Source of the DNA: Eubacterium sp.
GTDB lineage: Bacteria; Bacillota; Clostridia; Lachnospirales; Lachnospiraceae
Assembly (NCBI GenBank): GCA_021769425.1
Contig: JAETSX010000055.1
Span: 1 to 32,760 of the forward strand
Direction of reading: 5' to 3'
DNA length: 32,760 bases
Position 1 is the first letter of the stretch; each line of letters opens with the position of its first letter. The notes beneath the pieces are model-generated. The model did not search any database and was not told the origin of the DNA. It was given only the letters and a program-made list of their open reading frames with translations. This document shows, one piece after another, positions 14,191 to 32,183 of the stretch. The translations under genes and the position numbers were made by a program.

Positions 14191-14973
14191 TTAACGCTGC
14201 GGAACATTATTGTCGCTCACTTTACAACAGATCATAGTCACATTATCTTTCCCTCCTGCAGAAAGCGCTTGCTCCAGCAGTATTTGAATCATTTGGGTCG
14301 TTTTTTTTTGTTCTATTAAAACTTTTTGAATTACCGGCTCCGGCACCATATCCGTCAGCCCGTCGCTGCAAATCAAAAATACATCTCCATTCCGCATTCC
14401 CATTCCGACAATATGAGGATCCAACAGAATTTCTTCCCTTGGCATTCCTAAAAACTGTGTCAGCACGGGATGCCTGTTTTTCAGCCCTGATAATCTCAGC
14501 GCCTTTTCATCCGTATGCTTTTCAGATATCAATTTCAGGCTGCCGCCGCGCAGAATATACGCCGGGCTGTCTCCTACATTCATCAGATATGCATATTCCG
14601 TATGAAAAAATAGTATGGTAGCTGTAGTTCCAATATGCCCAAGCCTGCCCTGTTCCGCTTTCCAGCAGACCTGACGGTTCAACGTTTCTGTTATATGTAA
14701 AAGAATCGATTTCTCAACCCTTGGAATCCGGCATATCTCCCGGAACTTTTCTGCGGCTGTATAAGAGGCCGCCTCCCCGGCATTTTCTCCGCCCATACCG
14801 TCAAATACCGCCACCGCTTTTACTTTTTCTGCGGTAACTGTTTCTGTCAGCATTCCGCTCATACTTCCGTGCTCCATATCTAAAATATTATTTTGGAAGT
14901 AAAAATTGTCTTCATTCTTATCCCTGACTTTTCCCTTATGGCTGATGCATGCCATTTCAATTGCGTATCCCAT
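14191..14973 (-). CDS. PP2C-family Ser/Thr protein phosphatase
   Basis: A 260-residue metal-dependent phosphatase expected to reverse phosphorylation by the PASTA kinase at the other end of the block. The PP2C motifs are intact: KVRDKNEDNF (Asp22), VFDGMGG (Asp58), LICSDGLTDM and GGKDNVTM, together giving the Mn/Mg-binding aspartates. No signal or membrane segment, so cytosolic. Its start lies inside the end of the preceding FHA-protein gene (17-base overlap, ribosome site GGAAGGAAG), implying translational coupling. Such kinase-phosphatase pairs usually sit next to each other; here they bracket an entire secretion locus. Confidence 0.93.
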   Translation of the reverse strand: MGYAIEMACISHKGKVRDKNEDNFYFQNNILDMEHGSMSGMLTETVTAEKVKAVAVFDGMGGENAGEAASYTAAEKFREICRIPRVEKSILLHITETLNRQVCWKAEQGRLGHIGTTATILFFHTEYAYLMNVGDSPAYILRGGSLKLISEKHTDEKALRLSGLKNRHPVLTQFLGMPREEILLDPHIVGMGMRNGDVFLICSDGLTDMVPEPVIQKVLIEQKKTTQMIQILLEQALSAGGKDNVTMICCKVSDNNVPQR

Positions 14974-16786: not shown

Positions 16787-16810
16787 CTCTTTTCATATGA
16801 TTCCATTTTC

Positions 16811-17089
16811 TCACGAATGCTCACTGTCGTTTTTCTTCTCTTCTGCCTCAACCAGAGCGTTTCGAAATGCAAATTCTTCTTCATTCTGCATTCCTACATA
16901 ATAAAGAGTTTCGATATCTTCATTGTTAAAAACATAAAGAGAATCTTTATTTAAATATCCCTCCGGAAACAAACAGCCGGAATAATCATAGGAAACATCC
17001 TGGCAAATCTGGCTTCTTCCTATAATCATCAGTTTTTTCGTTCCCCCATTTAAAGTCACCACAGACCCTATCGGCAAATATTTTTTCAT
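16811..17089 (-). CDS. DUF4176-like small protein (T7SS accessory), copy 2
   Basis: A 92-residue protein beginning MKKYLPIGSVVTLNGGTKKLMIIG, clearly homologous to the protein at 22391-22666 (LPIGSVV and GTKKLM shared, then YDY and PEGYL/PEGFV). Proteins of this kind are frequently encoded beside T7SS substrates; their biochemical role is not established, but a chaperone or adaptor role is often suggested. I choose the ATG at 17089 (GGAGG, 8-base spacer). It starts about 20 bases after the Ala/Gly-rich substrate gene, as if paired with it. Confidence 0.75.
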   Translation of the reverse strand: MKKYLPIGSVVTLNGGTKKLMIIGRSQICQDVSYDYSGCLFPEGYLNKDSLYVFNNEDIETLYYVGMQNEEEFAFRNALVEAEEKKNDSEHS

Positions 17090-17109
17090 TTCTTTTTCCT
17101 CCATTTCCG

Positions 17110-18174
17110 CTATTTCCAGAATCCTGCGCCAAAGTCTGACCAGTCAATCTTTATTTTTCCTCCAATCGGACCTAAGCCCAAATCCAGACCAATTCCAGAT
17201 GTGCTGACCTCTCCTTCTGCCTTTGCCTGCACTCCAATTCCGCCTTCTGCGCCTACGTCAATCTTAACGCCTAAGATAGTAAACCCAGCCGATACCTCCC
17301 CTTTTGCCAGGAATGCTTCTGCACCTGCTCCGGCGCTGGCAGTAACGCTTCCGTCCGCATTGAGGGACACTCCGGCGCTGGCATTGGCTCCGGCGCCCAA
17401 CAGAGAACCTTCTGCATTTCCATGAACATTAAAAGCATCATTTCCTGCTTTTGCGCTTGCGCTTCCGTGAGCCACCTGAGCGGAGGCGCTTGCAGATACC
17501 TCTGCACTCCCTGTCAGCATGCCGTTTTGAAATTGCAGCGTTGCTCCTGCCCCGATGCCTGCCGCAGCCGCAAAAAGCTCTCCGTCTACACTTGCCTCAC
17601 CATATTTTCCGCTGACGGATGCATTTCCTGCCAGAACAGAGCCTGATACATTGGCATTCGCTCCAAGATTAATGTTTCCATCTCCGATGTTCATGTATGC
17701 ATTGGCTTCTCCCATCGCGGAAAGCAAAGACATACTGGCGTTTGTCTCTCCCAGGTTACCGGCATTTGAGACCTCGGCCCCCAACAAGGCATAGGATGCA
17801 GTAATATCAGCTCCCGCATGAAAGCCTCCACCTCCAAATTCTGCGGACGCTCCTGCATGTATATCACTGTCATGAAATGAATATGAGGCTCTGCTGATCC
17901 CTTTTCCTACCACTTCTTTTTCTGCCGCCTGATACTGAGCATATATTTCGGATAATGCGTCTTTTAATTCAATTGTCTGGTTTTTTCCTGATTCTATGCT
18001 GGCAGATACCTGCTGCAGCCTTTTCTCCATAAGTTCTGCCGACAGACCCGAAAGAGCCAGATTAGATGCTGCCTTATCCAGCTTATTTTTTTGCTCATCC
18101 AGCAATTTCGCACATTTGCCCAGCGCACTGATATTTACTTTTATCTTGTCTAATTTTACCTCAACTTCCCCCAC
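17110..18174 (-). CDS. Probable T7SS substrate with helical head and long Ala/Gly-rich repeat domain
   Basis: A 354-residue protein with two parts. The first ~95 residues are helical and match the head of the other long substrate at 21403-22374 (VGEVEVKLDKIK against MAEFEVKINRMK, and ALSEIYAQYQAAE against ALSEIYGAYNAAE), as expected for a WXG100/LXG-like export domain. The remaining ~250 residues are alternating Ala, Gly, Ser and Val with short repeats such as GSASA, AGAGA and AKAEGEV, no cysteines and no clear catalytic motif, ending in KIDWSDFGAGFWK. That pattern suggests a repetitive beta-structure, possibly surface-associated or channel-like. No enzyme toxin is recognisable. A GTG start at 18174 is chosen because AAGGAGG lies 8 bases upstream. 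Confidence 0.7.
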   Translation of the reverse strand: MGEVEVKLDKIKVNISALGKCAKLLDEQKNKLDKAASNLALSGLSAELMEKRLQQVSASIESGKNQTIELKDALSEIYAQYQAAEKEVVGKGISRASYSFHDSDIHAGASAEFGGGGFHAGADITASYALLGAEVSNAGNLGETNASMSLLSAMGEANAYMNIGDGNINLGANANVSGSVLAGNASVSGKYGEASVDGELFAAAAGIGAGATLQFQNGMLTGSAEVSASASAQVAHGSASAKAGNDAFNVHGNAEGSLLGAGANASAGVSLNADGSVTASAGAGAEAFLAKGEVSAGFTILGVKIDVGAEGGIGVQAKAEGEVSTSGIGLDLGLGPIGGKIKIDWSDFGAGFWK

Positions 18175-18272
18175 CTTTCTACCCTCCTTTTGCACTTGAA
18201 AGAAATTTTATTTCATTTCCCTTTTACTCCTTTGTTTTTCTCCCGTTTTTGTATCTGAAAGAAATCCTGTTT

Positions 18273-20471
18273 TTACTTCACTTTCACCTTTTTGGTTTTG
18301 CTCCAACTGCTGTAATATTTAGTTTTTCCAACTTTTACATAAGAACGGAGCCTGACGTAATAGGTCTTTTTGCTGGAAAGCCCTGTCATTACCACCCTGG
18401 ATTTTTTCTTATCAAATTTGCGCCTAAGTGTATAGGACTTAAAGTTCTTTTTAGCAGAAATATGAAGTTCATAACCTTGCGCCTTTTTGTTTTTCTTCCA
18501 GGTAATCTCTATTTTCCGTTCAGCAGGCGATACAGCCTTTGCAATGGCTGTTTTTTTCGGAACCACTTTTATTTTTACCTGCTTTTTCGCAGACTTATAG
18601 TTGGCTGTTTCAGACGCCCGGATAGTAATTACCGCTGTTCCGTATTTCTTAACAGATACTTTTCCTTTTGCTGATATCTTTGCCACCTTCGGATTACTGC
18701 TGACATAACTTAATTTGCCGTCCCCGTTGGTAGAGGCTTTTAAAGTGAATGATTTGCTGCCGTATTCCCTGGTATAAGAAGAAGCCGTGATTTTCTGCGT
18801 TTTCTTTACAATTGGAGGGGTATCCGTATTGTTATTGGGGGTACTTGTCTGGTTATTGTTAGCGGGCGGAGGGGTTATGCTCTGAACTGTCAGCATCGCT
18901 CTGCTGCCTGCCACCTCATAGATTCCATTGCTCACTACGCAGTAATAATACCTGCCGTTTATGCTGGCTGTCACCTGGCTGCCCGGCACCGTATAAGAGG
19001 AGGAAGTCGCACCTGCAATCTTTGTGCCTGTCCCGGCTCCAGATACGGCATAGTACCACTGAAAGGTATAGTTCGTTGGATTTCCGCCAGTCACATTTAT
19101 CAGAAACGTCACGCTCTCTCCCGCTTTCACTGTTGTGGAAGAAGAGGACACTACCGTAGGCGGAGTGTATACCGTTAATTGTGCTCTGCCGCTTACGACG
19201 CTATACTGGCCGTTGCCCACCTCACAGTAATAATATCTGCCGTTTGCGCCTGCTGTCACTTGGCTGCCCGGCACTGTATAATTCGCAGAAACCGCCCCAT
19301 CAATCTTGATTCCCGCCCCATTCTGAGCTGCGGCATAATACCATTGGTAGGTATAATCTACCGGATTCCCGCCGGTTACAGCAACATGGAAAACTGCGCT
19401 TTCTCCTGCTTTTACTTTCTGTTCCAAGGGCGCTGCTACCGCCGGCGCACTGTATACGGTCAACCGTGCGCGTCCGCTTGGCACCTCATAGTCATGGAGA
19501 GTGTCCCGAACCACACAATAATAATAATTTCCATCTAATTCTGGCGTTACCTGTTCTTCTGATAGATAATAAGAGAGAGAAGTCGCTTCTTCAATTTCTA
19601 CTCCCAGACCGTCCTGTGAATCAGCAACATACCATTGGAACGTATAATAATCCTCATAATCACCCTCTGCTGTCACTTCAAAATAAGCGCTTTCCCCTGT
19701 TTTCACATTCTGATCCGACGGTACAGAAACCACAGGCCTTAAATCCACTTCCCAGATCGCATATAATGTTACATTTCCATTCTGCGTATATTCATCTCCC
19801 GGCTGATAAGAAGCCGTCTGCGCATAACTGCTTGCGGACCATCCTTTGAACAAGTACCCCTCCCGGGAAGGCTCCACTGAACTCAATATCAGCGGACTTT
19901 CAGTATACTTTACCTGAGTTTTTGGTTCCCCCGTTCCCCCATTGGCATCATAGGATATGGTATACTCTCCCAGAAGTTCCAGATAAAAAGCATCATTTGA
20001 TTCCGGATCGTAGGTTTCTACTGTTTCCCCATTTGCAAGTGTCAAATCAAAATATAACTTTATGGAACCCTGCTCATTTTTCAGGGACACAGGAATATAG
20101 GCACATCCTTCTTCTGTGTCATAGTAGTAATCTTTACCCTCTGTCACGCATTTTACCGTACTGATGGTATCAGCGCCACCTGCTTCCTTTCTGATATATG
20201 TCCTCACTGTACTGCCGGCAATCTTCTCAGCTTCAATTTGATACTCCAAATAAAACTCTTTATTCCGCTCTATCTTCTCATAAGACGCATTGCCCAATAC
20301 ATTCGCCATCACGTAGTTTCCATTTATTTTATATACTAACTTGCATTGGGCGCCTGCGGCTCTTGCGGTATACTCCGATCTTGCTGCAGCAAAAATAACC
20401 GCCATAAAAAACACAGTAAACATAACTCCCAAAACTCTGTGCCATTCTCTGTTATGTGATTTTAATTTCAT
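18273..20471 (-). CDS. Sec-exported surface protein with InlB-type repeat and three Ig-like domains
   Basis: A 732-residue exported protein. Numbering from an upstream start at 20486: signal peptide to about 45, an N-terminal domain (46-172), an InlB/Listeria-Bacteroides repeat (175-247, YDANGGTG ... GYLFKGWS ... LYAIWEVD), three tandem Ig-like domains (250-346, 349-440, 443-535; each with AGES or TGES, QWY and YYYC), a Pro/Asn linker (536-562), a Big_2-like domain (564-643) and a fibronectin III-like end (650-737) rich in lysine. No LPXTG anchor is present, so it is released or held by charge. The ATG at 20471 has GGAGGG 7 bases away. A Sec substrate inside a T7SS operon is unusual; it may be an adhesin co-expressed with the secretion system. 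Confidence 0.85.
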   Translation of the reverse strand: MKLKSHNREWHRVLGVMFTVFFMAVIFAAARSEYTARAAGAQCKLVYKINGNYVMANVLGNASYEKIERNKEFYLEYQIEAEKIAGSTVRTYIRKEAGGADTISTVKCVTEGKDYYYDTEEGCAYIPVSLKNEQGSIKLYFDLTLANGETVETYDPESNDAFYLELLGEYTISYDANGGTGEPKTQVKYTESPLILSSVEPSREGYLFKGWSASSYAQTASYQPGDEYTQNGNVTLYAIWEVDLRPVVSVPSDQNVKTGESAYFEVTAEGDYEDYYTFQWYVADSQDGLGVEIEEATSLSYYLSEEQVTPELDGNYYYCVVRDTLHDYEVPSGRARLTVYSAPAVAAPLEQKVKAGESAVFHVAVTGGNPVDYTYQWYYAAAQNGAGIKIDGAVSANYTVPGSQVTAGANGRYYYCEVGNGQYSVVSGRAQLTVYTPPTVVSSSSTTVKAGESVTFLINVTGGNPTNYTFQWYYAVSGAGTGTKIAGATSSSYTVPGSQVTASINGRYYYCVVSNGIYEVAGSRAMLTVQSITPPPANNNQTSTPNNNTDTPPIVKKTQKITASSYTREYGSKSFTLKASTNGDGKLSYVSSNPKVAKISAKGKVSVKKYGTAVITIRASETANYKSAKKQVKIKVVPKKTAIAKAVSPAERKIEITWKKNKKAQGYELHISAKKNFKSYTLRRKFDKKKSRVVMTGLSSKKTYYVRLRSYVKVGKTKYYSSWSKTKKVKVK

Positions 20472-20491
20472 TGACAGACCCTCCACAAAAC

Positions 20492-20525
20492 GGTAAGAGC
20501 ACTGAACCTGTTCCGTGCCCTTACC
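20492..20525 (-). promoter_or_regulatory. Hairpin in the gap before the surface-protein gene
   Basis: GGTAAGAGCAC (20492-20502) pairs with 20515-20525 with one G-U pair, about 20 bases upstream of the surface-protein start codon. There is no T-run. It sits in the largest gap within the T7SS block (137 bases) and may shield or process the mRNA. Confidence 0.4.
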
Positions 20526-20608
20526 TTGCTATTGCAACAGTTTCTACTCTATTCTGCCGCCCGTTGTTTTCTTATTTCCTGTAAACAATTTCCAATTTCA
20601 TCAAATTC

Positions 20609-20926
20609 TTACACAATTACATCCGATGACAATGCATTTGCTGCCGCCACATTGGCGTTTTCTGCTTTTGTATACTCCTGCGCCATGGCCTGCAAATCCG
20701 TCACATGTTCATTCACCATAGACACCATGCGGTTAATATCATCCTGAAGCCCCTTAAACTTTTTAACATACGCTGAAGCTGCGTCACCGCTCCATACTTC
20801 CCCGGTGAGCCCTGTCACAATGGTTGTCATCTGGGTGGTCAGATTTTTAATCTGATTGCCGCTGCTCTGAAAAGATGTGGCTGTGCTGGTCAATTTGGAT
20901 GAATCTACTTTTAATACTCCTGTCAT
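20609..20926 (-). CDS. WXG100-family protein (a)
   Basis: A 105-residue helical hairpin protein with VWSGDAASAY at the turn and a C-terminal YTKAENAN helix, which carries a Y-x-x-x-D/E-like export signal. It ends SSDVIV, matching the DDVIV end of the WXG100-like protein at 23006. It is probably exported through EssC as a dimer. The ribosome site is GAGGA. It is the last WXG100 gene before the surface protein. Confidence 0.88.
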   Translation of the reverse strand: MTGVLKVDSSKLTSTATSFQSSGNQIKNLTTQMTTIVTGLTGEVWSGDAASAYVKKFKGLQDDINRMVSMVNEHVTDLQAMAQEYTKAENANVAAANALSSDVIV

Positions 20927-21017
20927 AATGCATTTCCTCGCTTTCTGGTTTTATTTTCTGTTGTTTTTTGCTTCCTGTTCTGTTTTTTATTTCCTGCTTC
21001 TTTTGGTTTTACGGCTC

Positions 21018-21323
21018 TTATTTGTATTTTCTGGTATTGGCCGTGTTCAGATTGGCGCTTTCCGCCTTTTCATAAGTTTTGACAATTTCCTGAAGGCTGC
21101 TGACATACTTTTCAATCGCATTGTAGAAATTATTCATCTGCGTAATGTCCTTACCAAACGCCTTGTGGAATGCATCGTTTGCATCACCTTCCCACATGGA
21201 GTTCAGAGAATTCTCTGTGGAAGTAAGCTGCTCAATCTGCTTTTTCAAACTGCTGTTTAATGTCTTTAACTCCCCTGCCTTGCTTGTGATTGTAGATGTG
21301 TTTACTGTAATTTTGTTTGCCAT
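21018..21323 (-). CDS. WXG100-family protein (b)
   Basis: A 101-residue, all-helical protein with the signature SMWEGDANDAFHKAF at its centre and YEKAESAN near the C-terminus, matching the YxxxD/E type VII export signal. It has a strong ribosome site (AGGAGG). It is the most canonical WXG100 protein of the set and a good candidate for the secreted EsxA-like structural substrate. It lies between the 323-residue substrate gene and WXG100 (a). Confidence 0.92.
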   Translation of the reverse strand: MANKITVNTSTITSKAGELKTLNSSLKKQIEQLTSTENSLNSMWEGDANDAFHKAFGKDITQMNNFYNAIEKYVSSLQEIVKTYEKAESANLNTANTRKYK

Positions 21324-21402
21324 GTCTAAATCCTCCTAAAATTTTTTATTATTACTCCTGCATTTTACTGCCGAAGTAATATCTTCCAAAGCCGCCAATA
21401 CC

Positions 21403-22374
21403 TCATGTATGAGAAAGCGCCCATGGAGTTGTAATCTGATTCCACCAGGAAGAAACCGCATTTCCTACCCCTGATGCAAAATTACTTACCTTTTCCATTC
21501 CGTCCATAACTGCATCAGATACTGTTTCTTTCAAACTCTTTCCTGTAATTGCTTCCGTCACCTGGTCAATGCCAAATACAATCAAGCCTGCGGCTCCTGC
21601 AACTGCCCACACCGGGGCTGCCACACCCGCTACAGCTGCACCTGCTGCAATTGCTGCCGTTAACCCTGCTGTCATTCCAATATCTATTCCGGTTTCCAGC
21701 GCTGTTTCTCCCCAAAACCGCAAGTTTCCAAAACCGCCATCATCCTGAAATTCTTCATAATTGGAATAGAAATTTTCCGCCAGTGTCAGTATATTACCTG
21801 CCCACTTCACTGCATTGGAAGCGGTTTTAAGCGATGCGCCTGTCTCCGCTTTTTTTAATTGATCACTGGCTTTAAACCACCATCCCGGACCGCTTGGATC
21901 CACCGCACCAATTACTGCATCTGCAGAATCTCCCAACATTTTTAAAATATCGAAAGCCGCTTTATCTACTGTCAAATCGCCGCCTATGGCTTTTATGATT
22001 AACTCTGCCATTTTTCCTAAAGGACTGGCGCTCCCTAACACTTCCCACACCATTCCTCCATACCCGGCCGCGTCCGCAACCTTCGCATGTTTCATTTCAT
22101 GCCCATACACGGCAAGTTCCGCTGCATTGTAAGCTCCATAGATTTCACTTAATGCCACCGCCATACTGCTGACTTGATTTGATGCCTGGCATAATTGCTG
22201 CTCCAAACTTTCTAAAGATTTTTTTACCGATCCGTACTGGCTGCCTATGGACGAGTTTATCCCGCTCCGACAATCTGAAACACGGTTTCCTGCCGAAATC
22301 AATTTTTCTGCCAGCCTCTTTTCCTGACCGGCCACAGATTTCATTCTGTTGATCTTCACTTCAAACTCTGCCAT
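21403..22374 (-). CDS. Long T7SS substrate with hydrophobic C-terminal domain
   Basis: A 323-residue protein. The first ~100 residues are helical and homologous to the head of the 354-residue substrate (17110-18174), ending in a SEIYGAYNAAELAVYGHE pattern. The middle part has no recognised motif. A long Ala/Gly-rich hydrophobic stretch (about 233-268) and an amphipathic end (LKETVSDAVM...SSWWNQITTPW) follow. This layout of export head plus hairpin-like hydrophobic segment resembles LXG-type pore-forming effectors, but no toxin family can be assigned and no obvious immunity gene lies next to it. A DUF4176-like gene sits just upstream, the usual companion of such substrates. Confidence 0.75.
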   Translation of the reverse strand: MAEFEVKINRMKSVAGQEKRLAEKLISAGNRVSDCRSGINSSIGSQYGSVKKSLESLEQQLCQASNQVSSMAVALSEIYGAYNAAELAVYGHEMKHAKVADAAGYGGMVWEVLGSASPLGKMAELIIKAIGGDLTVDKAAFDILKMLGDSADAVIGAVDPSGPGWWFKASDQLKKAETGASLKTASNAVKWAGNILTLAENFYSNYEEFQDDGGFGNLRFWGETALETGIDIGMTAGLTAAIAAGAAVAGVAAPVWAVAGAAGLIVFGIDQVTEAITGKSLKETVSDAVMDGMEKVSNFASGVGNAVSSWWNQITTPWALSHT

Positions 22375-22390
22375 ACTCCCTTATCCCACC

Positions 22391-22666
22391 TTATTCTCTG
22401 GTTTTGTAATACGCTTCCAGCTTACTTAAAAACTCCTCTTGCTCCAGGTTTTCATATCCTCTATAAAAAACCTCCCGGATGTCATCCGCTTGGAACAAGA
22501 AGTTAGCTGCCTGCCCCACAAACCCTTCCGGATAAAAAAGTCCCAGATAGTCATATGGCTTCCCCTCCACGTCCTCCTGCATAACGCCGATTACCATTAG
22601 CTTTTTGGTTCCTTCTTTTAAAATGACAACACTTCCTATTGGCAATAATTCTTTTATATTTTTCAT
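22391..22666 (-). CDS. DUF4176-like small protein (T7SS accessory), copy 1
   Basis: A 91-residue protein with LLPIGSVVILKEGTKKLMVIG and YDYLGLFYPEGFVG, closely similar to the protein at 16811-17089. It is 12 bases after the preceding WXG100-like gene and 16 bases before the 323-residue substrate gene. It probably assists that substrate; its exact role in T7SS is unproven. The ribosome site is GGAG. Confidence 0.8.
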   Translation of the reverse strand: MKNIKELLPIGSVVILKEGTKKLMVIGVMQEDVEGKPYDYLGLFYPEGFVGQAANFLFQADDIREVFYRGYENLEQEEFLSKLEAYYKTRE

Positions 22667-22678
22667 TATTTATCTCCA

Positions 22679-22996
22679 TCACTGATAATTTCTTGTCTCA
22701 GCCAGTTCTAATGCCGTTTTTTCCGCATTGTAATTATTCTGAGCAATTGTCCGGAGCGTAGCCGCTGTCTTGGCAAGGCCGTCTGCAACTTTGCGGATAT
22801 TTTCACTCACTGACTGCCCTTTGACTGTATACAGCCTTGCATTATCTCCCTTCCAGTTAGAGGAAATTTCCCGCATGCAGTCCGGCATCTCATGATCCGC
22901 AACCTTGCGGATGTCTTTTGCAATCCGCTCCAGTTCCTCCGCCTGCTTCTTTGCCCTCTGAAAATCCATCTGAATCGAATATGCTGTTTTTGCCAT
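22679..22996 (-). CDS. WXG100-like protein (c)
   Basis: A 105-residue helical protein with SSNWKGDNARLY at the turn and NYNAEKTALELAE at the C-terminus. It lies between WXG100-like (d) and a DUF4176-like gene, with very short gaps. GGAGGAGCT precedes the ATG. Its heptad-rich helices (QRAKKQAEELERIAKDI) suggest pairing with another small protein, possibly (d) or the head of the 323-residue substrate. Confidence 0.83.
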   Translation of the reverse strand: MAKTAYSIQMDFQRAKKQAEELERIAKDIRKVADHEMPDCMREISSNWKGDNARLYTVKGQSVSENIRKVADGLAKTAATLRTIAQNNYNAEKTALELAETRNYQ

Positions 22997-23005
22997 AGCT
23001 CCTCC

Positions 23006-23323
23006 TTACACAATCACATCGTCCGGCAACGCAGATGCAGCCTGCAATGCTTGTTCTTCCGCCTTTTCATAAACGCCGGCCATTTTCTCCAAATCCTCCG
23101 GATGTTCTCCCAGGCGTTTCAGAAGTTTCTTTGCATCTTCATCATTTTCTTTCAGATATCTCCGATGGAAATCACTGGCTTCCCCTTCCCAGTAGGATTT
23201 TGAATTATTCACCAGATTATAGATCCCCTGCCAATGAGACTCTATTTTCTTCACCTGTCCGGAAATTTGCTGCGCCTTTGTTTTCAGCGCATCCGGAGAT
23301 ACTTTTAACTGTATCCCTGCCAA
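23006..23323 (-). CDS. WXG100-like protein (d), TTG start
   Basis: About 105 residues with KSYWEGEASDFHRRY at the turn and VYEKAEEQALQAAS near the C-terminus (YxxxE-like export signal), ending DDVIV. The best ribosome site (AGGAGG, 8-base spacer) selects a TTG start at 23323; an in-frame GTG at 23332 overlaps the ribosome site itself. It is one of three consecutive small helical proteins directly after the EsaB-like gene. Confidence 0.83.
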   Translation of the reverse strand: MAGIQLKVSPDALKTKAQQISGQVKKIESHWQGIYNLVNNSKSYWEGEASDFHRRYLKENDEDAKKLLKRLGEHPEDLEKMAGVYEKAEEQALQAASALPDDVIV

Positions 23324-23335
23324 CTGACCCACCTC

Positions 23336-23635
23336 CTATACCCGGATATTTGCCACAATGTCTCCTACTTTATTTTCACAGGATTCATACTTTGCCCTTG
23401 CATTGGTTTCATAGGAATACATACTCTGCAGATTTTTAATCAGCGTATCCATTCCCCGCATATCATCCCAGAATGCTTTCTTAAATGCTTCGCTTCCCGG
23501 GCCGTCCCACATACTGTCTAACTGAGCAACATTCTTCTTCATATTTTCCAATTCACTCTGAATCCCCCGCAAATGCCCTGCAACGGATTCTGTATCTGTC
23601 CGCAGCCTGTCCGTATTTATTTTTATATGATTCAA
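23336..23635 (-). CDS. WXG100-family protein (e), TTG start
   Basis: A 99-residue helical protein with SMWDGPGSEAFKKAFWDDM at the turn, very like canonical EsxA-type proteins. The C-terminal helix has YESCENK. Initiation is at TTG with AGGAGGGG six bases upstream. It is the first WXG100 gene after EsaB and EssC. Confidence 0.88.
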   Translation of the reverse strand: MNHIKINTDRLRTDTESVAGHLRGIQSELENMKKNVAQLDSMWDGPGSEAFKKAFWDDMRGMDTLIKNLQSMYSYETNARAKYESCENKVGDIVANIRV

Positions 23636-23653
23636 GGCAATCCCCTCCTTCCC

Positions 23654-23902
23654 TTATACCAGCATCAGCCTATTTCCATCCCGAATGCCATTGCCGTACA
23701 AAGTCTGATTTTTATCCAGTGTTTTACGCTGATCCATGGAACACATCATAAATCCCTCTCTCTTTTCCAGAGGCTTCCCATTTACTTTCTTGGACACCAT
23801 TTCACTGATCTCTGCAATGACCTGCCCTACGGGCACATTCTCATCCAGCATGAAATCGTAACTTCCGTCCATGGACGGAATATAAATATCCACTAGTATC
23901 AT
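23654..23902 (-). CDS. esaB: Ubiquitin-like T7SS protein (EsaB/YukD type)
   Basis: An 82-residue small cytosolic protein with a beta-grasp-like pattern (MILVDIYIPSMDGSYDFML, then VGQVIAEISEMV, ending GIRDGNRLMLV). EsaB/YukD proteins are standard T7SSb components that regulate or assist secretion. Its ATG overlaps the EssC stop as ATGA, and its ribosome site AGGAGG lies in the EssC C-terminal codons, so translation is coupled. The homology is judged from size, fold pattern and position. Confidence 0.8.
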   Translation of the reverse strand: MILVDIYIPSMDGSYDFMLDENVPVGQVIAEISEMVSKKVNGKPLEKREGFMMCSMDQRKTLDKNQTLYGNGIRDGNRLMLV

Positions 23903-26900
23903 CCTTTTTTCCTCCTGGCCAGGGGAACTATAACTCTGGAAGTTTCCCCCTCTTCCATCACATCCGGCAGCAGACCGATCCCCGGCTGCTCGGCTTTGCC
24001 TTTTTCTGCAAAACCAAAGGAATCAAAATTCAAAACCGGGTTATCAATGACCTTTCCGCCGAAATGTATTCCCGTCTGATATCCTGCAAAAAGTTCATAA
24101 ATCCGGTGACCTGCCGCAAGAGACCGTTTTTCCAGGGAAAGTTCTCCAATAAAATAAATATGGTGCAGCCGTCCTTTCCCGATTACATTTTCCAAAAATC
24201 CCCACATATTCCGTTCTGCCTGATAAACAAAGGGAATAAACCAACTCAAATCCGAAATAAATATAAAGTAAGGAATCTCTTTGCTCATTTCCTCAAAAAT
24301 TTCTTCTTCCTCATACTCTTCATTCAAAAGCTGATTCTTCCTGATATTTCTCTCCTTAAATACCGGAAGCAGTTCCTGGAAGAAATTGAATATTTCTTCT
24401 TCCGTAGATGCATAGACTGCCTCTGCCACATTTTCATAGCTGCGCAGTTCCCGTCCAGGACTGTCAATCACGCAGACCCTGCTGTTTTTCTCCATCGCCG
24501 CTTGAATACATACTTTCATAAAGTTAGTCTTGCCGGAGCGGGCATGTCCCAACACCAGATAACAGTAATTTCGCCTGAGATCAATCCCATATATCTGTGC
24601 GTTGGCAGAATCATAGCCCACCGGAAGTTTCCCGGAATCATCTGACATCCTCCGGTATTCTTCCAATTCATGAAACTGGAGCCATACCGGTTTCGCCGGG
24701 ATCTCGGGAATCCTGCGGGCTGCATCCCCCTTCCATGCCTGTTTCATTTCCCGGCATTGATCCCGTATTGTTTCTATTCTCTGGTAATCATTTTCCGTTT
24801 CCACAGCCAGAGCCGTCTGGTATTCCAATACCCGGCCCTCAAAAAGAGCAAGCCCCCGGCCCCGGATTCCACTCTCGGGCATCATCTCAATCTGGTTGTT
24901 GTGAAGCAACTCCACATAAGCATATTTATCCTGCAGCGCCAAACACAAGGCAGTATTCATGTTTTCTCCCACCCTTGCCGTAATATCGTTCATGCCGAAG
25001 CCGCCTCCTGACACTACCAGGAAAATTCCATGGCTGACCCCTTCTTTGGAAAGCCGGATTAAAAAATCTTCGTAGGCTTCCTCTGTTTTTTCTTTAAAGG
25101 AAGCATAATTGTCTATCATCAGAATAATTGCTGGAATCACAACTCCATGCACTTTCACATACTGGCTGTAATTGCCCCCTCGGAACAATTGTTTTCTCTC
25201 TTCCAGCATACCCTGAAGCATGTTGAAGAATTTGGAAATCTTATTCAGATCATCTTCATACATAATTCCGCCTGTATGGGGAGCTTCTTCAAAAGCAGAC
25301 ATCATTTTGCTGCTGAAATCCAGTCCATAGAAGTTGATCCATTCCGGCGTATATTTCTGAACCAGCGCATACGCCATAGTCTGCATCATAGTACTGCGCC
25401 CGCTGACAATCGTTCCGCAGATTGCAATATGTCCATCTTTGGAAAAATCAATTTTCAGCGGCATCTGACTCTGATTTTGAGGATCGTCTAATTTTCCGAT
25501 TATGACCTCCAAAGACCATTCCTTTTTCGTCTGTATCCAACAGCCATTCTGAAAGGCGCTTTCTGCATACTCTGGAAATTCATCCAGATAAATCTGTTCG
25601 CCCAATACCGGCATCCAAAGCTTAAGATGGTACTGGTAACCATTTTCCTCTGCCATCGCTGCCAGATGTTCCTTCACTGCATCTAACTGGGTCTTTTCTT
25701 TCCTTTTAGAGCCTTTCACCTTCTGCGCATCTCCACGGACTCCGCTTCCGGCCAATTCTACCCGACCGCTCAAGTTCAGCAGCTTGGCAATCTCCAAATT
25801 GGCATCTGCCGTCTCTTCATCATACACAGCCCCGCTATAGCCTGACTGGAATAATTCATAAACCTCGTCATTTCCCACCTGCAGATAGCAGCGACCGGCC
25901 TGGGTAATGTAAGCCGCATCCGGTTTGTGGAGCATGTCGTTGCTGTCCTGCTTATCCTGCACTCTCAGGCACAGACGAAATTTAGAATTGCTCCAGATAT
26001 TGTCATCCACTGTCCCGCTGGGCTTCTGTGTGGCAAGAATCAAATGCACTCCAAGGCTTCTTCCCACCTGGGCAACACTAATTAATTCCCTCATAAATTC
26101 CGGCTCTTCTTTTTTCAATTCCGCAAACTCATCAATAATAATAAACAGATGGGGAACCGGCAATGACGCTTCGCCGCCTTTGTATAATTTTGTGTACAAA
26201 TTGATGTTATTGACACCATGCTCCGTAAAGACTCTCTGTCTTCTGCGGTTTTCGCTTTTAATGGAAATCATCGCTCTGCGCACCTGATTTCCTGACAAGT
26301 TGGAAATTTGTCCCACCATATGAGGCAGCCCTTCAAACAAGTTTGCCATTCCGCCGCCTTTGTAGTCGATAATGAAAAATCCGATATCATCCGGACTATA
26401 ATTGACCGCCAGAGACATCATATAAGTCTGCAATGTTTCACTCTTCCCGGAACCGGTCGTTCCAGCCACCAACCCATGAGGTCCATGGTATTTTTCATGA
26501 ACGTCAAGGTAGCAGGGCACATCGCCTGCCTTCTTTCCAATTATGCCTCTGATATTGTCATAAGTCCGGTTTTTAGCCCAGAGTTCCCGAATGGGCAAAT
26601 CCTGGGGCCTGCGGATCTGAAACATGTCAAAAAATGTCAGAGTGCCCGGGATTTCCCCGCCTTTTTCCATTTCTTTTACCTGAAGGCCGGACAGATGTCT
26701 GGAAAACCGCTCCAGCTCTTGATCACTGACCTGATCAAAGGTGATTTTCTGCTTCCTGTCCTCACTGGCGGATACCTCATACATTCCCTGAAACTCTTTT
26801 GTATTTTCAATGATAAAGTCGCAGGCATTGGGCAATTCTTCGTACTGCTCTGTCAAAAGAATGGTGGTCAGACCGCAGACATTGTCTTTTTCAAATATGT

Positions 26901-28617
26901 ATTTTGCCAGAAGCTCTCCCTCCAACACCTGAAGGTTGGACACGAACAGCACATAATAAGGCTTTGGAATCTCCCCCTTTTCCCTGTCTTTCTGTTCCCC
27001 GTCCCTGTTACGGAAAATTTTTGTCAATTCATAAAACACGTCACTTGCCTGCTCTTCTTCAGATGCAAGATATCTTGTTTTCTTATCCTCTGACCAAACA
27101 TGAGGCAGCCATTTTGCAAAATTCCAGCTTTCCGCTTCATGGGAATTATTCCTGTCATAGACAAAACTCATCTTCACGTCCGTATAGCAGTTATTGGCTG
27201 CAATCTGAGCCGCTATGCATCTGGATACTTCAACAGCTCCCTTTTTCTCTTCTCCCCCGACAATGCCGATTAAATTATGTTGCCGCAAGTCAAGCGTCAC
27301 CGGCACATCATAAAGCATGCCGTAATTTTCTTTCACTTCTCTGGGCTTTTCCGACAGTTCATCTCTGTAAAGAGAAAATTTCTTTTTGGGAACATCAATG
27401 GAAATCTGAAAAGGCACTGCGCCTGTCCCAAGGCGGTGATTCAGAAAATCTTTATGGGTCACATTCCGGTTCCAGAGAATGCCCCGGCTTCCGTCATAGG
27501 ACAGGCAAGCGGCCGCATCCGGATACATCTCAGCAAGCATTTTTGATGTCTGCTGGTATTTCTGTTTTACTTCCTGGGTCTTTTCAATCAGATATTCACT
27601 GTACGCATCAAACCTGTGCTGGCGCTGCCCCGCCTCTTCTTTTTTCTGATAGCGGATGTTGGCCATTGCCCAGACCACACCGATCACTGCGGAAGACAGC
27701 GACATGATCAGACCAGAATACATATATAAGGAAGAACTTCCCCCGGCATTGCTGGCCGCCGCCATCATTACACAGCCCAAAAGCATTGGCAGCGCCATGG
27801 TAACAGAAGGCCCAATGGTTAAGTAAAGCGGCTGCTGTTTGGTGGGGGTTAACTGGGGAGGCCCCTCAATTTCGATGGCTGCAGCATCCAAATTTTCATA
27901 ATTTCTGGGGGCGCGGTGATACATTGTTTTTCCCCCTGAAGAGAGATGCCTCTCTTCTTGCAGGAAAACCGTGCTCTCTTCATAGGAAGAGTACTTTTCC
28001 AGCTTTTTCTCGTTTATGACAGCTCCGCTTCCTGCTGTATCCACGGCCAGGATATTTCCCAAAAATACCATGGGAAGTCCCATAATATTGATGTATGATC
28101 CCCATTCCAAAATCTTTTCTTTATCCACTCTGTGAGAATCCACATAGATCCCATTAATACTTTTGTTCACAATTTTATAAGAAGTTCCCGATTTTTCTAT
28201 CACGGCATGTTCATGGGAAACCAGCCGCAGATAACTGTACTGGATATCGCTTCCAAAGTCTTTTCCAATAGTAATTTTATCTGTATGTCCTAGCCGGTAT
28301 TTTTCAAACACATGAAATATGGAGTCTACATATTTTACAATAATGGAAACGATTTCTTTTCCCCGGACTGAGAGATTAATTACATCATTGTCTTCTAAAA
28401 GTTCCTCCTGACACTCCTGCTGATTCTTCACCAAAGCATAAAATGAGCTCTTTTTTATCTTCCATTTTTTATCCAGCACCTCCAGATTCAACGTCAGATT
28501 ATCCTTTAAATGAAAAAAATCTTTATCAAGCATAATCTGATAATCTGCATTATTCAGGGCCGGAAGTTGATACTCCTTAAATGCATTTTCCGAATAAACG
28601 GAAAGAACAATATTCAT
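23899..28617 (-). CDS. essC: EssC-type T7SS ATPase with FHA domain and three FtsK/SpoIIIE domains
   Basis: A 1572-residue membrane motor of type VII secretion. An N-terminal FHA-like region (about 1-190, with IGKDFGSD, VSHEHAV and NGIYVD) is followed by two membrane helices (about 265-320) and a linker, then three ATPase domains. Domain 1 is canonical (GTTGSGKSE at 719-727, LFIIIDEF at 824-831). Domain 2 has a changed P-loop, VSGRSTM, with Arg in place of Lys, and DN instead of DE. Domain 3 has GHARSGKTN (1357-1365). Size and order match Firmicutes EssC. FHA domains of EssC bind phosphothreonine-type ligands in related systems, fitting the upstream kinase. The ribosome site is GGAGG in the preceding gene's last codons. 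Confidence 0.96.
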   Translation of the reverse strand: MNIVLSVYSENAFKEYQLPALNNADYQIMLDKDFFHLKDNLTLNLEVLDKKWKIKKSSFYALVKNQQECQEELLEDNDVINLSVRGKEIVSIIVKYVDSIFHVFEKYRLGHTDKITIGKDFGSDIQYSYLRLVSHEHAVIEKSGTSYKIVNKSINGIYVDSHRVDKEKILEWGSYINIMGLPMVFLGNILAVDTAGSGAVINEKKLEKYSSYEESTVFLQEERHLSSGGKTMYHRAPRNYENLDAAAIEIEGPPQLTPTKQQPLYLTIGPSVTMALPMLLGCVMMAAASNAGGSSSLYMYSGLIMSLSSAVIGVVWAMANIRYQKKEEAGQRQHRFDAYSEYLIEKTQEVKQKYQQTSKMLAEMYPDAAACLSYDGSRGILWNRNVTHKDFLNHRLGTGAVPFQISIDVPKKKFSLYRDELSEKPREVKENYGMLYDVPVTLDLRQHNLIGIVGGEEKKGAVEVSRCIAAQIAANNCYTDVKMSFVYDRNNSHEAESWNFAKWLPHVWSEDKKTRYLASEEEQASDVFYELTKIFRNRDGEQKDREKGEIPKPYYVLFVSNLQVLEGELLAKYIFEKDNVCGLTTILLTEQYEELPNACDFIIENTKEFQGMYEVSASEDRKQKITFDQVSDQELERFSRHLSGLQVKEMEKGGEIPGTLTFFDMFQIRRPQDLPIRELWAKNRTYDNIRGIIGKKAGDVPCYLDVHEKYHGPHGLVAGTTGSGKSETLQTYMMSLAVNYSPDDIGFFIIDYKGGGMANLFEGLPHMVGQISNLSGNQVRRAMISIKSENRRRQRVFTEHGVNNINLYTKLYKGGEASLPVPHLFIIIDEFAELKKEEPEFMRELISVAQVGRSLGVHLILATQKPSGTVDDNIWSNSKFRLCLRVQDKQDSNDMLHKPDAAYITQAGRCYLQVGNDEVYELFQSGYSGAVYDEETADANLEIAKLLNLSGRVELAGSGVRGDAQKVKGSKRKEKTQLDAVKEHLAAMAEENGYQYHLKLWMPVLGEQIYLDEFPEYAESAFQNGCWIQTKKEWSLEVIIGKLDDPQNQSQMPLKIDFSKDGHIAICGTIVSGRSTMMQTMAYALVQKYTPEWINFYGLDFSSKMMSAFEEAPHTGGIMYEDDLNKISKFFNMLQGMLEERKQLFRGGNYSQYVKVHGVVIPAIILMIDNYASFKEKTEEAYEDFLIRLSKEGVSHGIFLVVSGGGFGMNDITARVGENMNTALCLALQDKYAYVELLHNNQIEMMPESGIRGRGLALFEGRVLEYQTALAVETENDYQRIETIRDQCREMKQAWKGDAARRIPEIPAKPVWLQFHELEEYRRMSDDSGKLPVGYDSANAQIYGIDLRRNYCYLVLGHARSGKTNFMKVCIQAAMEKNSRVCVIDSPGRELRSYENVAEAVYASTEEEIFNFFQELLPVFKERNIRKNQLLNEEYEEEEIFEEMSKEIPYFIFISDLSWFIPFVYQAERNMWGFLENVIGKGRLHHIYFIGELSLEKRSLAAGHRIYELFAGYQTGIHFGGKVIDNPVLNFDSFGFAEKGKAEQPGIGLLPDVMEEGETSRVIVPLARRKKG

Positions 28618-28623
28618 AATCCC

Positions 28624-28827
28624 CTACCTCCGCTTCTGGTTGGCCAATGCATCATCCAGCCGTTCTTTTTCCTTTTGCATACGCAGTAATTCATTCTGCT
28701 GTTTTCTCACTTTTCGCTTCCGTGACAAAATCACAATCCCGGCCAGCAGCAGAATCAATATTACAATCTCATATCCTGCAATTGCCTGCTGGGACAATAA
28801 CATGTCTTTTATCTTTTCTGCATCCAT
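28624..28827 (-). CDS. Small single-pass membrane protein in the T7SS locus
   Basis: A 67-residue protein with one membrane helix (about residues 19-35, YEIVILILLLAGIVIL) and a basic, Glu/Lys-rich cytosolic coiled-coil tail (ELLRMQKEKERLDDALANQ). It fills the slot between the kinase and EssC with gaps of 9 and 6 bases. Canonical T7SSb has EssA and EssB, both single-pass membrane proteins, near here. This may be a minimal functional counterpart of one of them, but I see no sequence identity to either. No family recognised. Confidence 0.75.
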   Translation of the reverse strand: MDAEKIKDMLLSQQAIAGYEIVILILLLAGIVILSRKRKVRKQQNELLRMQKEKERLDDALANQKRR

Positions 28828-28836
28828 TTGCTCTCC

Positions 28837-31086
28837 TTAATTAATTAAATCCCACTTGTTAATATCTTCTTCATCCGGATCTACAGTAGGCTGAGGCTGT
28901 TCCTGAGGCGCAGCCGGCTCCTGAGGCGCAGCCGGCTCCTGAGGCACAGCCGGCTCTTGGGGCTGCTGAGGTTCCGGTTCCGGCGGATTGTAACTTGGCT
29001 GGCTGTAAGATTTCGGTTTGGGTGTAGGAGTAGGCTCGGGCGTGACTACCGGCGTTTCCTCTGCCGGTTTGGGCCCTTTGCTGATCACAATTTCAACTTT
29101 TGTTCCCGGAGCCGCACTCTCCTCGCCATTTATGCTCTGGCTGACTACAATTCCCGCCTCCACTGCATCGTTATAATCTTCCTCTTCTTTTACCTTCGCT
29201 TTCAGCCCCGCCGCCTTCAGACTTTTTTTCGCCTTTTTCTCCGTCTGTCCTACCACATTGGGCACCTGTACCATTTCTTTTCCTTTGCTTACAATCAGCG
29301 CAACTCCAGTTTCTTCGCCCAATATTTCCCCTGCTTCCGGCGACTGGGAAATTACAATTCCCGCTTCCACCGTATCAGAATAAACGTCTTCTCCAAATTT
29401 CCAGGAAATCCCTGCTTCTTCCAGAACCTTACCTGCTTCCTCTTTCGTTAAATCTATCACTTTGGGTACTTTTACAGGCTCTTTGCCAAGGCTGATTTTC
29501 ACGGAAATGACACTTTTCTTTTTCACTTCTGTCCCTGCTTCGGTATCCTGGGAAATTATATGCCCCTGTGCTACCGTATCGGAATAAGATTCCCCTGATT
29601 TCTGCAGAGCAAGTCCGCTGTCTTCCGCTATCGCCTCTGCTTCCTCATATGTCTTATCCTTTAAATTCGGAGTCTTCGTTCCCTGATTTCCCTGAATCAT
29701 AAAAACGGCAATCAGAATTACAACGGCAAATGCCCCGGCTGCAGCCATGATAATTTTTGAATTCTTTCGGACTCCCGGCATTTTGGCGGCATCCTTTCCT
29801 GCTGCTCCCTTATCTTCTGGCACATTTTCTTTCGCCTTTTCGCTTTCATTCCCTTCCTCTGACTCTGAATGGAGCTCCTTCGTTTTAGGTACTGGCTGTG
29901 TTTCTGCTGCCGTGTCCTCTTCTTTCCCGGCTTCTTCCTGTTCCCGTTGCAGCGCTTCTCCCTCGAGCGGAGAAACAGGCTTTTGCTGTCCAAACAACCC
30001 CTGGGTCCTTTCTCCATTTCCACTGATATCCCCGCCGATCTCGTCCAGGGAAAGGAAATCAATGGAACCTGCATTCCCTGTCCTGTCACCTGCCACAGAA
30101 CTCCAGGAACCGGCCATTTCCCCTGTCATTCCCTCTTCCGGAGAAATAAACTTTATTTCCTGTTCCAGTTTCAGGGCTTCCTGCAATGCATCCCGCATTT
30201 CCTCAGGACTCTGATAACGCTCTTTGGGAGCATATGCACAGGCTTTTAACACAATCTCTGCCAGTTTTCCATCCGCATTGCAGGGCATCGGAAACGCTTC
30301 TCCCCGAAACCGCTTCTCATTGGCTTTCTCCGGGTCTGTATAATGCATTGGCTCCGGAAACGGAGGCAAAAACGGATTCCTGTTATTGTTGAGAAAACGG
30401 TACAGTACGATTCCAAGAGAATATATATCCACACTTGCATTATAATCTTTCCCTTTGTACACTTCTGGCGCCATAAAACTGTAGGTTCCCTTCTTGGACA
30501 ATCCGGAACTGGTCTTCTCCAGTTTCCGTGCAATCCCGAAATCCCCCAGCTTGTATTGTCCCAAGTCAGAAACAAAAATATTTTCTGGTTTTATATCCCT
30601 GTGGATAATCTTATATTTTTGGCACACTTCTAAAGCCTGGCAGATATCAATTCCAAGCTGAATTACATCTTGTACGGTAAAAGGATGTTTTTTCATATAA
30701 TCATATAAAGGCGTCAGCAGCTCCATCCGCAGGTAAATGTCCCATCCCACGCCATCCGGATGAGGAATTACCGTATGATCTTCATAACTGACAATATTGC
30801 TGTTGCCCCGCAGCCTGGACATCAGCACAAATTCTTTCACAATGTCTTCCACCATACCACGGAAAAATAGCGTTGCGCTCTTCTCATCAAAACCACTGTT
30901 CAGATAAGTCGTCAGTTCCCCCTTGCTGACTGGAATTGTAATCACTTTAAGCGCTGATTCATAGGTATGGTCGAATTCTTTTCTTACAATTTTGTATACT
31001 TTTCCGAAAGCGCCTTCACCGATATATTTTTCGACTTCCCATCCAGGCCAGATTTCTCCAATATTCATTATCTTTTCTGTGTCCAC
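28837..31086 (-). CDS. PASTA-domain Ser/Thr protein kinase heading the T7SS block
   Basis: A 749-residue transmembrane kinase. The Hanks-type domain (about 15-300) is intact: GEGAFGKV (23-30), Lys47, HRDIKPEN (162-169), DFG (182-184) and APE (206-208). A Ser/Glu-rich linker, one membrane helix (444-466), three PASTA domains (468-535, 537-602, 605-672) and a Pro/Gln/Glu-rich tail follow. PASTA domains bind peptidoglycan or lipid II in PrkC/PknB. The FHA domains of EssC and of the pseudoprotease are likely phosphorylation readers, and the PP2C at 14191 the eraser. The GTG start at 31086 has GGGGG six bases upstream; an ATG seven codons on lacks a site. It has the same membrane topology as EssB, a pseudokinase in canonical systems. 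A promoter would have to come from the invertible segment. Confidence 0.93.
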   Translation of the reverse strand: MDTEKIMNIGEIWPGWEVEKYIGEGAFGKVYKIVRKEFDHTYESALKVITIPVSKGELTTYLNSGFDEKSATLFFRGMVEDIVKEFVLMSRLRGNSNIVSYEDHTVIPHPDGVGWDIYLRMELLTPLYDYMKKHPFTVQDVIQLGIDICQALEVCQKYKIIHRDIKPENIFVSDLGQYKLGDFGIARKLEKTSSGLSKKGTYSFMAPEVYKGKDYNASVDIYSLGIVLYRFLNNNRNPFLPPFPEPMHYTDPEKANEKRFRGEAFPMPCNADGKLAEIVLKACAYAPKERYQSPEEMRDALQEALKLEQEIKFISPEEGMTGEMAGSWSSVAGDRTGNAGSIDFLSLDEIGGDISGNGERTQGLFGQQKPVSPLEGEALQREQEEAGKEEDTAAETQPVPKTKELHSESEEGNESEKAKENVPEDKGAAGKDAAKMPGVRKNSKIIMAAAGAFAVVILIAVFMIQGNQGTKTPNLKDKTYEEAEAIAEDSGLALQKSGESYSDTVAQGHIISQDTEAGTEVKKKSVISVKISLGKEPVKVPKVIDLTKEEAGKVLEEAGISWKFGEDVYSDTVEAGIVISQSPEAGEILGEETGVALIVSKGKEMVQVPNVVGQTEKKAKKSLKAAGLKAKVKEEEDYNDAVEAGIVVSQSINGEESAAPGTKVEIVISKGPKPAEETPVVTPEPTPTPKPKSYSQPSYNPPEPEPQQPQEPAVPQEPAAPQEPAAPQEQPQPTVDPDEEDINKWDLIN
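28903..28956. repeat. Three tandem 18-bp repeats in the kinase tail
   Basis: CTGAGGCGCAGCCGGCTC is repeated at 28903-28920, 28921-28938 and, with one change, 28939-28956. Each unit is 18 bases, so copy-number changes keep the frame and lengthen the extracellular Pro-rich PQEPAA tail. Confidence 0.85.
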
Positions 31087-31128
31087 TCTATTCCCCCGAT
31101 TCTAAAACATCTTCTGTATACGAACTCT

Positions 31129-31166
31129 CATAATTACCACATAATGGAAATTATGTAGTAATTATG
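31129..31166. repeat. Left recombination site of the invertible segment (extended palindrome)
   Basis: A nearly perfect 38-base dyad: CATAATTAC, C, ACATAAT, centre GGAA, ATTATGT, A, GTAATTATG. Its 31135-31156 part is the perfect reverse complement of 31313-31334. The central GGAA is asymmetric, which gives the site a direction. Confidence 0.85.
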
Positions 31167-31274
31167 CAAGACTCAACGCTGTTACCAAATACTTTCCTAT
31201 ATGCTTCAGAAACATCTTCTAATTTTCAGATAATATATATTGCTGGCACAAAAATAGAAAATAAATGATTCGTA

Positions 31275-31303
31275 TTGAAATACCTGGATTGGGATGATAT
31301 AAT
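31275..31303 (+). promoter_or_regulatory. Strong promoter inside the invertible segment, pointing away from the T7SS operon
   Basis: TTGAAA (31275-31280), exactly 17 bases, then perfect TATAAT (31298-31303). In the orientation given it reads rightward, leaving the T7SS kinase without it and producing antisense RNA to the recombinase. On the minus strand the best alternative (TTGGTA, 16 bases, CATAAT near 31164-31186) is clearly weaker. Confidence 0.8.
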
Positions 31304-31312
31304 TAAAAAACA

Positions 31313-31334
31313 ACATAATTTCCATTATGTGGTA
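31313..31334. repeat. Right recombination site of the invertible segment
   Basis: The exact reverse complement of 31135-31156 over 22 bases, with central TTCC opposite to GGAA on the left. Unlike the left site it lacks the outer CATAATTAC/GTAATTATG arms. Confidence 0.85.
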
Positions 31335-31356
31335 TCTAAACCCAATTTTTGTTACT

Positions 31357-32183
31357 TTATTTATCTTGGTCTATTTTTCCAGGCAGAACCAGCCCTGTAG
31401 CTTCAAGCTGCCTCCTATGCTCATTTACCGAAGCCCGTATGTAAATTCTTGTAGTTTCAATACTACTGTGCCCTAAGATATCCGCCAATTTGGCAATATC
31501 CTTTTCGATTTGATAAAAAGATTTGGCAAACAAATGTCTGAGGTTATGTGGAAATACTTTCTCCTCTTTCACTCCGGCCATTTGGCACAATGCTTTCATT
31601 TCTTTCCATATATTGCTTCGATCCACAGGATTTCCATTGGAAGTCTGAAATACTGGGCCGCTTTTCAGCTTTTTTTTGCTGATATAATACATAAGCTTTT
31701 TCTTCAGCTTCCCCGGAATTAAAATCTGACGGGCCTTTCCCTTACAGAAAATTTCCGCTGTCCCTTTTTTTACGCTGGAAACCGTAATTTCCGGCAATTC
31801 ACTAATCCGTATTCCAGTGGCACAAATGGTTTCCAAAATCAATGACAGCCGTCCCTGGCCTTTCTGTTCTGCCGTCCGAACCAATCTTTCATATTCCTGC
31901 TTAGTAAGATTTTTGCATTCCAGAAGGAAAGATCCCTTTTGGATACAGAACACTTTTACTTTCAATTCATACCAGCCCATGTATTCAAAAAAATTATTAG
32001 CCGCCGCCAAAAAAGAGTTAATACTGCTCAGCTTATACCTCTTACTGCTTTGCAGCATTTCTTTATACTCAATCATCCCTTTCTTACTTAATTCCCGGCT
32101 TCCGAAATAATCTGCCAGTTTCTTGATATCACAAGAGTATTTTCTGATTGTGGCAGGGCTTTTTTCCGCCTCAAATAAATAAT
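31357..32183 (-). pseudogene. Tyrosine recombinase (phase-switch invertase), 5' end removed by an IS
   Basis: A site-specific recombinase of the Xer/integrase family, the presumed enzyme for the adjacent inverted repeats. Counting from an internal ATG at 32076, all catalytic residues are present: Arg90 (ATGIRISEL), a Lys in CKGKARQ, His177 and Arg180 (HNLRH), His203 (LGHSS) and Tyr212 (TRIYIR). Upstream of that ATG the frame stays open and encodes a typical N-terminal core-binding helix (EAEKSPATIRKYSCDIKKLA) right up to the IS end at about 32184, where no start codon remains. The gene has therefore lost its first few codons and native promoter. A product from 32076 would lack roughly 35 residues of the DNA-clamping domain and may be inactive. 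Confidence 0.8.

Follow-up and report, generated by a model that had tools for sequence, protein, structure and literature searches.

A probable promoter inverton heading a type VII secretion operon in a Lachnospiraceae genome, and its likely arrest in the OFF orientation

The type VII secretion systems (T7SS) of the Bacillota are machines that export toxins and effectors. Variants that include a kinase, a phosphatase and FHA proteins have been classified as T7SSc to T7SSj, and the passages that describe them make no mention of an invertible promoter (PMC11217815). Heterogeneity around T7SS loci has been noted in other forms, with homopolymer phase variants around ESX-1 (PMC11898584) and a Staphylococcus aureus subpopulation that has a rearranged chromosome and lower T7SS expression (PMC6778178). 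DNA inversions are described in the Clostridia (PMC5903667), and in Clostridioides difficile the tyrosine recombinase RecV flips several switches, its loss locking the cells (PMC5903667, PMC7446863, PMC8890394). In gut Clostridia, inverton group 139 is tied to a tyrosine-type recombinase, invertase group 35, and members of the group are reported to shift orientation in culture (PMC11892184). No T7SS under an invertible promoter was found among the titles and abstract openings listed from the open-access literature. As far as searched, a T7SS switched by promoter inversion is undescribed, and a first-pass annotation of the DNA analysed here was aware of none of this design.

That DNA, referred to as the window, is a stretch of 32,760 nucleotides forming the entire contig C63 of a 4.9-Mb Lachnospiraceae genome in 228 contigs. 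We consider it probable that the element at 31135-31334 is a genuine promoter inverton, a phase-variation cassette that controls a T7SS operon and that is likely frozen in its OFF state in this genome.

An inverted-repeat element ahead of a T7SS operon

Table 1. Coordinates of the features of the window
Feature	Position	Strand	Evidence or content
Remaining operon genes	14191..23902	-	YukD, WXG100-type, DUF4176, Ig/repeat, trypsin-FHA, PP2C
EssC-type ATPase, N-terminal FHA domain	23899..28617	-	TIGR03928, 1107.9 bits against a cut-off of 778.4
PASTA Ser/Thr kinase, first operon gene	28837..31086	-	Domain matches
Left (operon-side) arm	31135..31156	none	Perfect reverse complement of right arm
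Invertible segment, 156 bp	31157..31312	none	Between arms; homologous segments of relatives in both orientations
Weak promoter-like site TTGGTA-N16-CATAAT	31161..31188	-	9/12; faces operon as assembled
Promoter-like sequence TTGAAA-N17-TATAAT	31275..31303	+	11/12 consensus bases
Right (recombinase-side) arm	31313..31334	none	Perfect reverse complement of left arm
Tyrosine recombinase, 5'-truncated	31357..32183	-	PF00589, 9.7e-27, 94.3 bits against a cut-off of 27.1
IS1380-family element, cut by contig end	32184..32760	-	PF13701, 2.4e-41

The T7SS operon occupies 16.9 kb of the minus strand (Table 1). It begins with the kinase gene, whose GTG start codon lies 48 nt from the left arm, and the first-pass annotation was thus right to place the first T7SS gene just outside the repeats. 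A gap of 219 bp separates the kinase from the ATPase, which contains FHA and FtsK/SpoIIIE domains, and the rest of the operon encodes YukD, five WXG100-type proteins (four above the PF06013 cut-off and one below), two DUF4176 proteins, one Ig/repeat protein, a trypsin-FHA protein, a PP2C phosphatase and two proteins without a match. A Pfam scan of 28 window proteins gave no match to EssA, EssB or EsaA, which makes this system a kinase/phosphatase T7SS variant and not the classical T7SSb.

The two 22-bp arms are exact reverse complements, as had been claimed, and form the longest perfect inverted repeat of its spacing in the window (40-500 bp from start to start); comparable repeats reached at most 14 bp across 100 Markov-shuffled windows. 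Each arm is by itself nearly palindromic, the left one containing the site ACATAAT-GGAA-ATTATGT, and this property would also suit a chance or static feature that never inverts, such as the palindromes of a regulator. Such an explanation is highly improbable given the length of the repeat relative to the shuffles, its linkage to a recombinase family with spacer matching, and the homologous elements found in both orientations, among which the two contigs of genome G424 described below count most heavily against it. No exact site of the ACATAAT type was found elsewhere in the window's genome beyond the two arms, and a comparison with viral contigs gave neither an exact match to the arm nor a relative of the kinase.

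Between the arms lies a promoter-like sequence with a TG preceding its -10 box. It is the top site of a scan that showed no enrichment overall (5 sites found, 4.6 expected), and its score was reached by none of 200 inverton shuffles. The first-pass annotation had noticed this consensus-like promoter and had overlooked its direction: it points away from the operon and would read antisense into the 3' end of the recombinase. Because the predicted promoter is directed away from the operon, the assembled state is read as OFF. Only this orientation is present in the window's one assembly, with no reversed copy of the inverton. After a flip, the -10 box would end at 31166 and the predicted transcription start would by arithmetic fall about 73 nt ahead of the kinase GTG. 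The OFF state may leak, since the weak site, as assembled, is directed at the operon, and this site may itself be a chance occurrence.

We propose that the neighbouring recombinase, a member of a Lachnospiraceae/Clostridia family, would recombine the arms and flip the segment between them. In the ON state transcription would begin close to the operon-side arm, with the promoter driving an operon that runs from the kinase through EssC, YukD and the WXG100 genes to the PP2C gene; in the OFF state, as assembled, it would fire away from the operon and into the recombinase gene.

Control of the whole 17 kb is suggested by the common direction of all the operon genes and by the lack of any internal promoter-like site above 10/12. 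Alternatively, the inverton could control the kinase alone, or only a nearby regulator, with the other T7SS genes served by promoters of their own. The gap between the kinase and EssC genes, several internal sites of 9-10/12 and the regulators that come after the inverton in two other genomes (G280 and G424, below) would fit this alternative. However, none of the listed sites of at least 9/12 lies on the minus strand at 28618-28836, the internal sites stop at 10/12, and their total of 35 is somewhat above the 26.5 +/- 4.5 expected. We regard such restricted control as rather unlikely and favor control of the operon as a whole.

The recombinase gene and its interruption

The adjacent tyrosine recombinase reported in the first-pass annotation is supported by a strong match to PF00589, whereas the loss of the 5' end of its gene to an IS1380-family element had gone unnoticed. 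The 3' end of the gene faces the inverton. An open frame running from an ATG at 32076 to 31357 includes a complete catalytic domain, with GIR and HNLR motifs that we take to be those of the catalytic domain. Native recombinase codons continue above 32076 up to the IS edge, and these 35 codons include no ATG, GTG or TTG. The edge is placed at about 32184 because six of 16 junction-type matches to the IS end elsewhere in the genome (110-121 bp, starting at 32173-32184) begin exactly there. The IS1380 model NF033539 scores 109.8 bits, under its whole-protein cut-off of 180, because the IS frame ends at the contig end. Most of the further IS-end matches in this genome, of which there are at least 16, lie at contig ends, and a heavy load of IS1380-type elements may break other genes of this genome too.

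Comparison with relatives, which where named are mostly from Lachnospiraceae and other Clostridia, indicates what was lost. The recombinase frame reaches further upstream in all 29 relatives compared, 28 of them with a methionine there and one (L011) without, and about 15 N-terminal residues are missing from the window protein in an alignment judged by eye. An N-terminal SAM-like domain is matched in the intact relatives L246 and L039 (in L039 just at the cut-off) and is not matched in the window recombinase. There is no close paralogue in the window's genome, the next recombinase being only 34% identical, with six further distant matches in total. With its start codon and N-terminal residues taken away by the IS, the recombinase has presumably lost its activity in this strain, and the switch is most likely frozen in OFF.

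There are two ways in which the operon might nonetheless be expressed. First, the switch could still turn, either through the truncated recombinase, initiated at a non-standard codon or an internal ATG, or through another recombinase acting in trans, so that the T7SS is on in some cells. The whole catalytic domain and the distant recombinases encoded in the genome are compatible with this, but it is unlikely given that no usual start codon lies between the IS edge and 32076, that the SAM-like domain of the two intact relatives finds no match in the window protein, and that the assembly holds neither another exact site nor a reversed copy. Second, transcription from the IS or from the weak site could cross the recombinase remnant and the inverton and enter the kinase gene, in which case the insertion would have made the T7SS constitutive. 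The transposase, recombinase, kinase and EssC frames are all on the same strand, the 9/12 site at 31188-31161 faces the operon, and no terminator-like site was found at 30900-32300, so IS transcripts could read through. Against this, a promoter in the IS is only putative, and the strong promoter as now oriented fires against IS transcripts, and we consider constitutive expression improbable as well. A switch frozen in OFF is the reading that we prefer.

The first-pass annotation had proposed that the entire T7SS block is switched on and off in subpopulations. The invertible cassette, together with an inversion ahead of a related T7SS in another genus (see below), speaks for such a system, but not for switching in this genome today: the OFF orientation, the truncated recombinase, the lack of another site or close paralogue and the lack of a reversed copy all weigh against it, and this part of the claim is unproven and probably wrong.

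Homologous cassettes and their orientations

The 109 loci fetched gave 93 recombinase rows, after retaining matches of at least 120 residues and dropping near-duplicates, and including one row from L011 that is only 33% identical. Beside the recombinase 3' end, 43 of the 93 relatives have ACATAA-N6-TTATGT sites as an exact inverted pair. No such pair was found in the other 50, where some contigs end inside the element; some relatives (L026 and L029, for example) carry a site pair of another sequence. Forty-five loci have at least two exact sites, 43 of them inverted with matching spacers and two arranged as direct pairs, with no mismatches (L136, with six sites, is counted as one pair). The 4-nt spacers are of 35 different sequences and agree in just 14 of 990 comparisons between loci. 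Strand exchange by tyrosine recombinases takes place in the spacer and requires spacers to match within a locus but not from one locus to another. Three or more sites are present in L148 (at 1708, 1759 and 1969 of the reverse complement), L017, L018 and L136, so that these elements could take up more than two states or lose part of their sequence. In each of four genomes (G057, G074, G177 and G280) the recombinase family is represented six or seven times at E <= 1e-55, and one cell may therefore run several switches.

Promoter direction was scored for 44 invertons, the window's included, giving 27 OFF, six ON and 11 not called; at a shuffle cut-off of 0.05 (n=20) the figures are 15, four and one. 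Most assembled invertons thus point at the recombinase, and in OFF the promoter would fire antisense into the recombinase gene, a possible form of feedback. Four targets other than T7SS were scanned, corresponding to two surface or secreted proteins, one capsule synthesis locus and one HTH regulator. The nearest relative of the window recombinase, 72% identical and from the same genus (G003), is ahead of a gene for a 980-aa secreted protein, and no EssC match was found in that genome at E <= 1e-60. Of the contigs of 31 relatives (L038 omitted), eight stop no more than 400 bp downstream of the recombinase match and one no more than 400 bp upstream of it; this is suggestive of mixed orientation and no more, since paralogous copies also break assemblies.

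A search of homologous loci for inverted alleles, proposed in the first-pass annotation, revealed both orientations. Two copies within genome G057 (L084 and L113) match in inverted sense at 94% over 382 bp, with 35 bp beside the recombinase matching in the same sense. Locus L019 is inverted relative to L021 (84%, 81 bp) and L028 (82%, 107 bp), L083 relative to L090 and L217 (80%, about 55 bp), and L097 relative to L111 (74% over 89 bp). The promoter calls differ accordingly between L019 and L021/L028 and between L083 and L090/L217, those for L019, L083, L090 and L217 being non-significant. Between L021 and L028 there is likewise an inverted match, over 85 bp, and this stretch must therefore be partly self-complementary.

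The clearest case is another T7SS locus. Recombinase matches occur in 74 of 397 family genomes and EssC matches in 91 of 397, and apart from the window only G280 has the two close together (contigs compared by eye); in G277, G346 and G259 they share a contig at distances of at least 295 kb. At most seven recombinase and two EssC candidates were scored per genome, so more such cases may exist. The G280 locus comprises an intact 294-aa recombinase gene, three sites, an HTH gene, a response regulator, a zinc-ribbon protein, an FHA protein and EssC, and the promoter-direction scan gave no call for its inverton. A cluster of this kind also occurs in its congener G424, with an EssC 91% identical to that of G280. 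In both genomes regulators lie between the inverton and EssC, and the inverton may therefore control the T7SS indirectly. Downstream of the G424 inverton are two stretches of about 240 bp (L246:3830-4067 and 4475-4718) that match their own reverse complements at 86% and 80%, respectively, and form long imperfect palindromes.

In G424 the T7SS locus is present on two contigs, C2 and C21. From just past the element to both contig ends the two are 99.99% identical over 37.6 kb and 100% identical over 49.9 kb, and the 99 bp ahead of the element agree fully and run the same way. The element itself is reversed: 231 of 233 bases are identical when one copy is inverted, compared with 150 of 240 aligned columns when it is not. 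The two differences lie towards the outer ends of the arms, where each arm has one marker base that its flank has kept, while inner marker bases have moved with the segment, which places the crossover mid-site. The best reading of C21 is as the second branch of a bubble in the assembly, with both orientations present in one sample. The pair could instead represent a duplication or two near-identical strains, the estimated contamination of G424 being 6%, and would still show both orientations.

The well-supported branches of a tree of 94 recombinases require the T7SS label to change twice, implying two separate recruitments of the cassette to T7SS. Of 392 order-level genomes, 33 (among them that of the window) carry the recombinase at E <= 1e-55; 13 of these were already in the family sample, and EssC was sought in the other 20 together with G003 and G424. 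It was found in two of these 22, adjoining the recombinase in G424 and on a different contig from it in G570. We also surveyed 32 regions upstream of T7SS genes, one of them (L197) being the downstream part of the G280 locus. A perfect inverted repeat of at least 15 bp at inverton spacing is absent in 31 of the 32, the remaining one (L200) having a 15-bp pair, and absence means little in several regions that are short because of contig ends. Among 37 loci (the 32 plus L148, L041 and L073-L075) the recombinase is found only in L148.

Implications and comparison with known systems

With a DNA switch at the head of its operon, a T7SS would be on or off in each single cell by a coin flip, and bulk cultures and single reference genomes may therefore mislead as to whether a species uses the system. 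The two G424 contigs allow a direct test of the claim, and the intact recombinases of G280 and G424 offer a comparison for the truncated one of the window. The spacer-matching rule and the order of recombinase, inverton and target provide a simple handle for finding such switches in assemblies of gut Clostridia. A broader view, which we offer tentatively and to which we give somewhat less than even weight, is that T7SS secretion in gut Lachnospiraceae is bet-hedged, that the cassette has been recruited to it at least twice, that antisense transcription in OFF stabilises that state, and that the IS froze the window's lineage in silence. If so, the insertion would have turned a phase-variable secretion system into a silent one.

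The secretion system itself resembles T7SSe, with which it shares an FHA-bearing ATPase, a YukD-like protein, more than one WXG100 protein (T7SSe calls for at least two), a membrane kinase, a PPM phosphatase and an extra FHA protein (PMC11217815). It differs in that the DUF6382 domain of TseJ/TsfJ, as that source presents them, is not among the window matches; the separate FHA protein of the operon has a trypsin domain and no match to DUF6382. As in the RecV-dependent flagellar and cwpV switches of C. difficile, a small invertible segment lies upstream of an operon (PMC5903667, PMC7446863, PMC8890394), although RecV acts on several switches with other targets, whereas the window recombinase adjoins its own element. 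There is a further likeness to inverton group 139 and invertase group 35, which also combine Clostridia invertons of about 200 bp with a neighbouring tyrosine-type recombinase (PMC11892184). The passages on that group name no T7SS, and it is nonetheless probably the same family as the window cassette.
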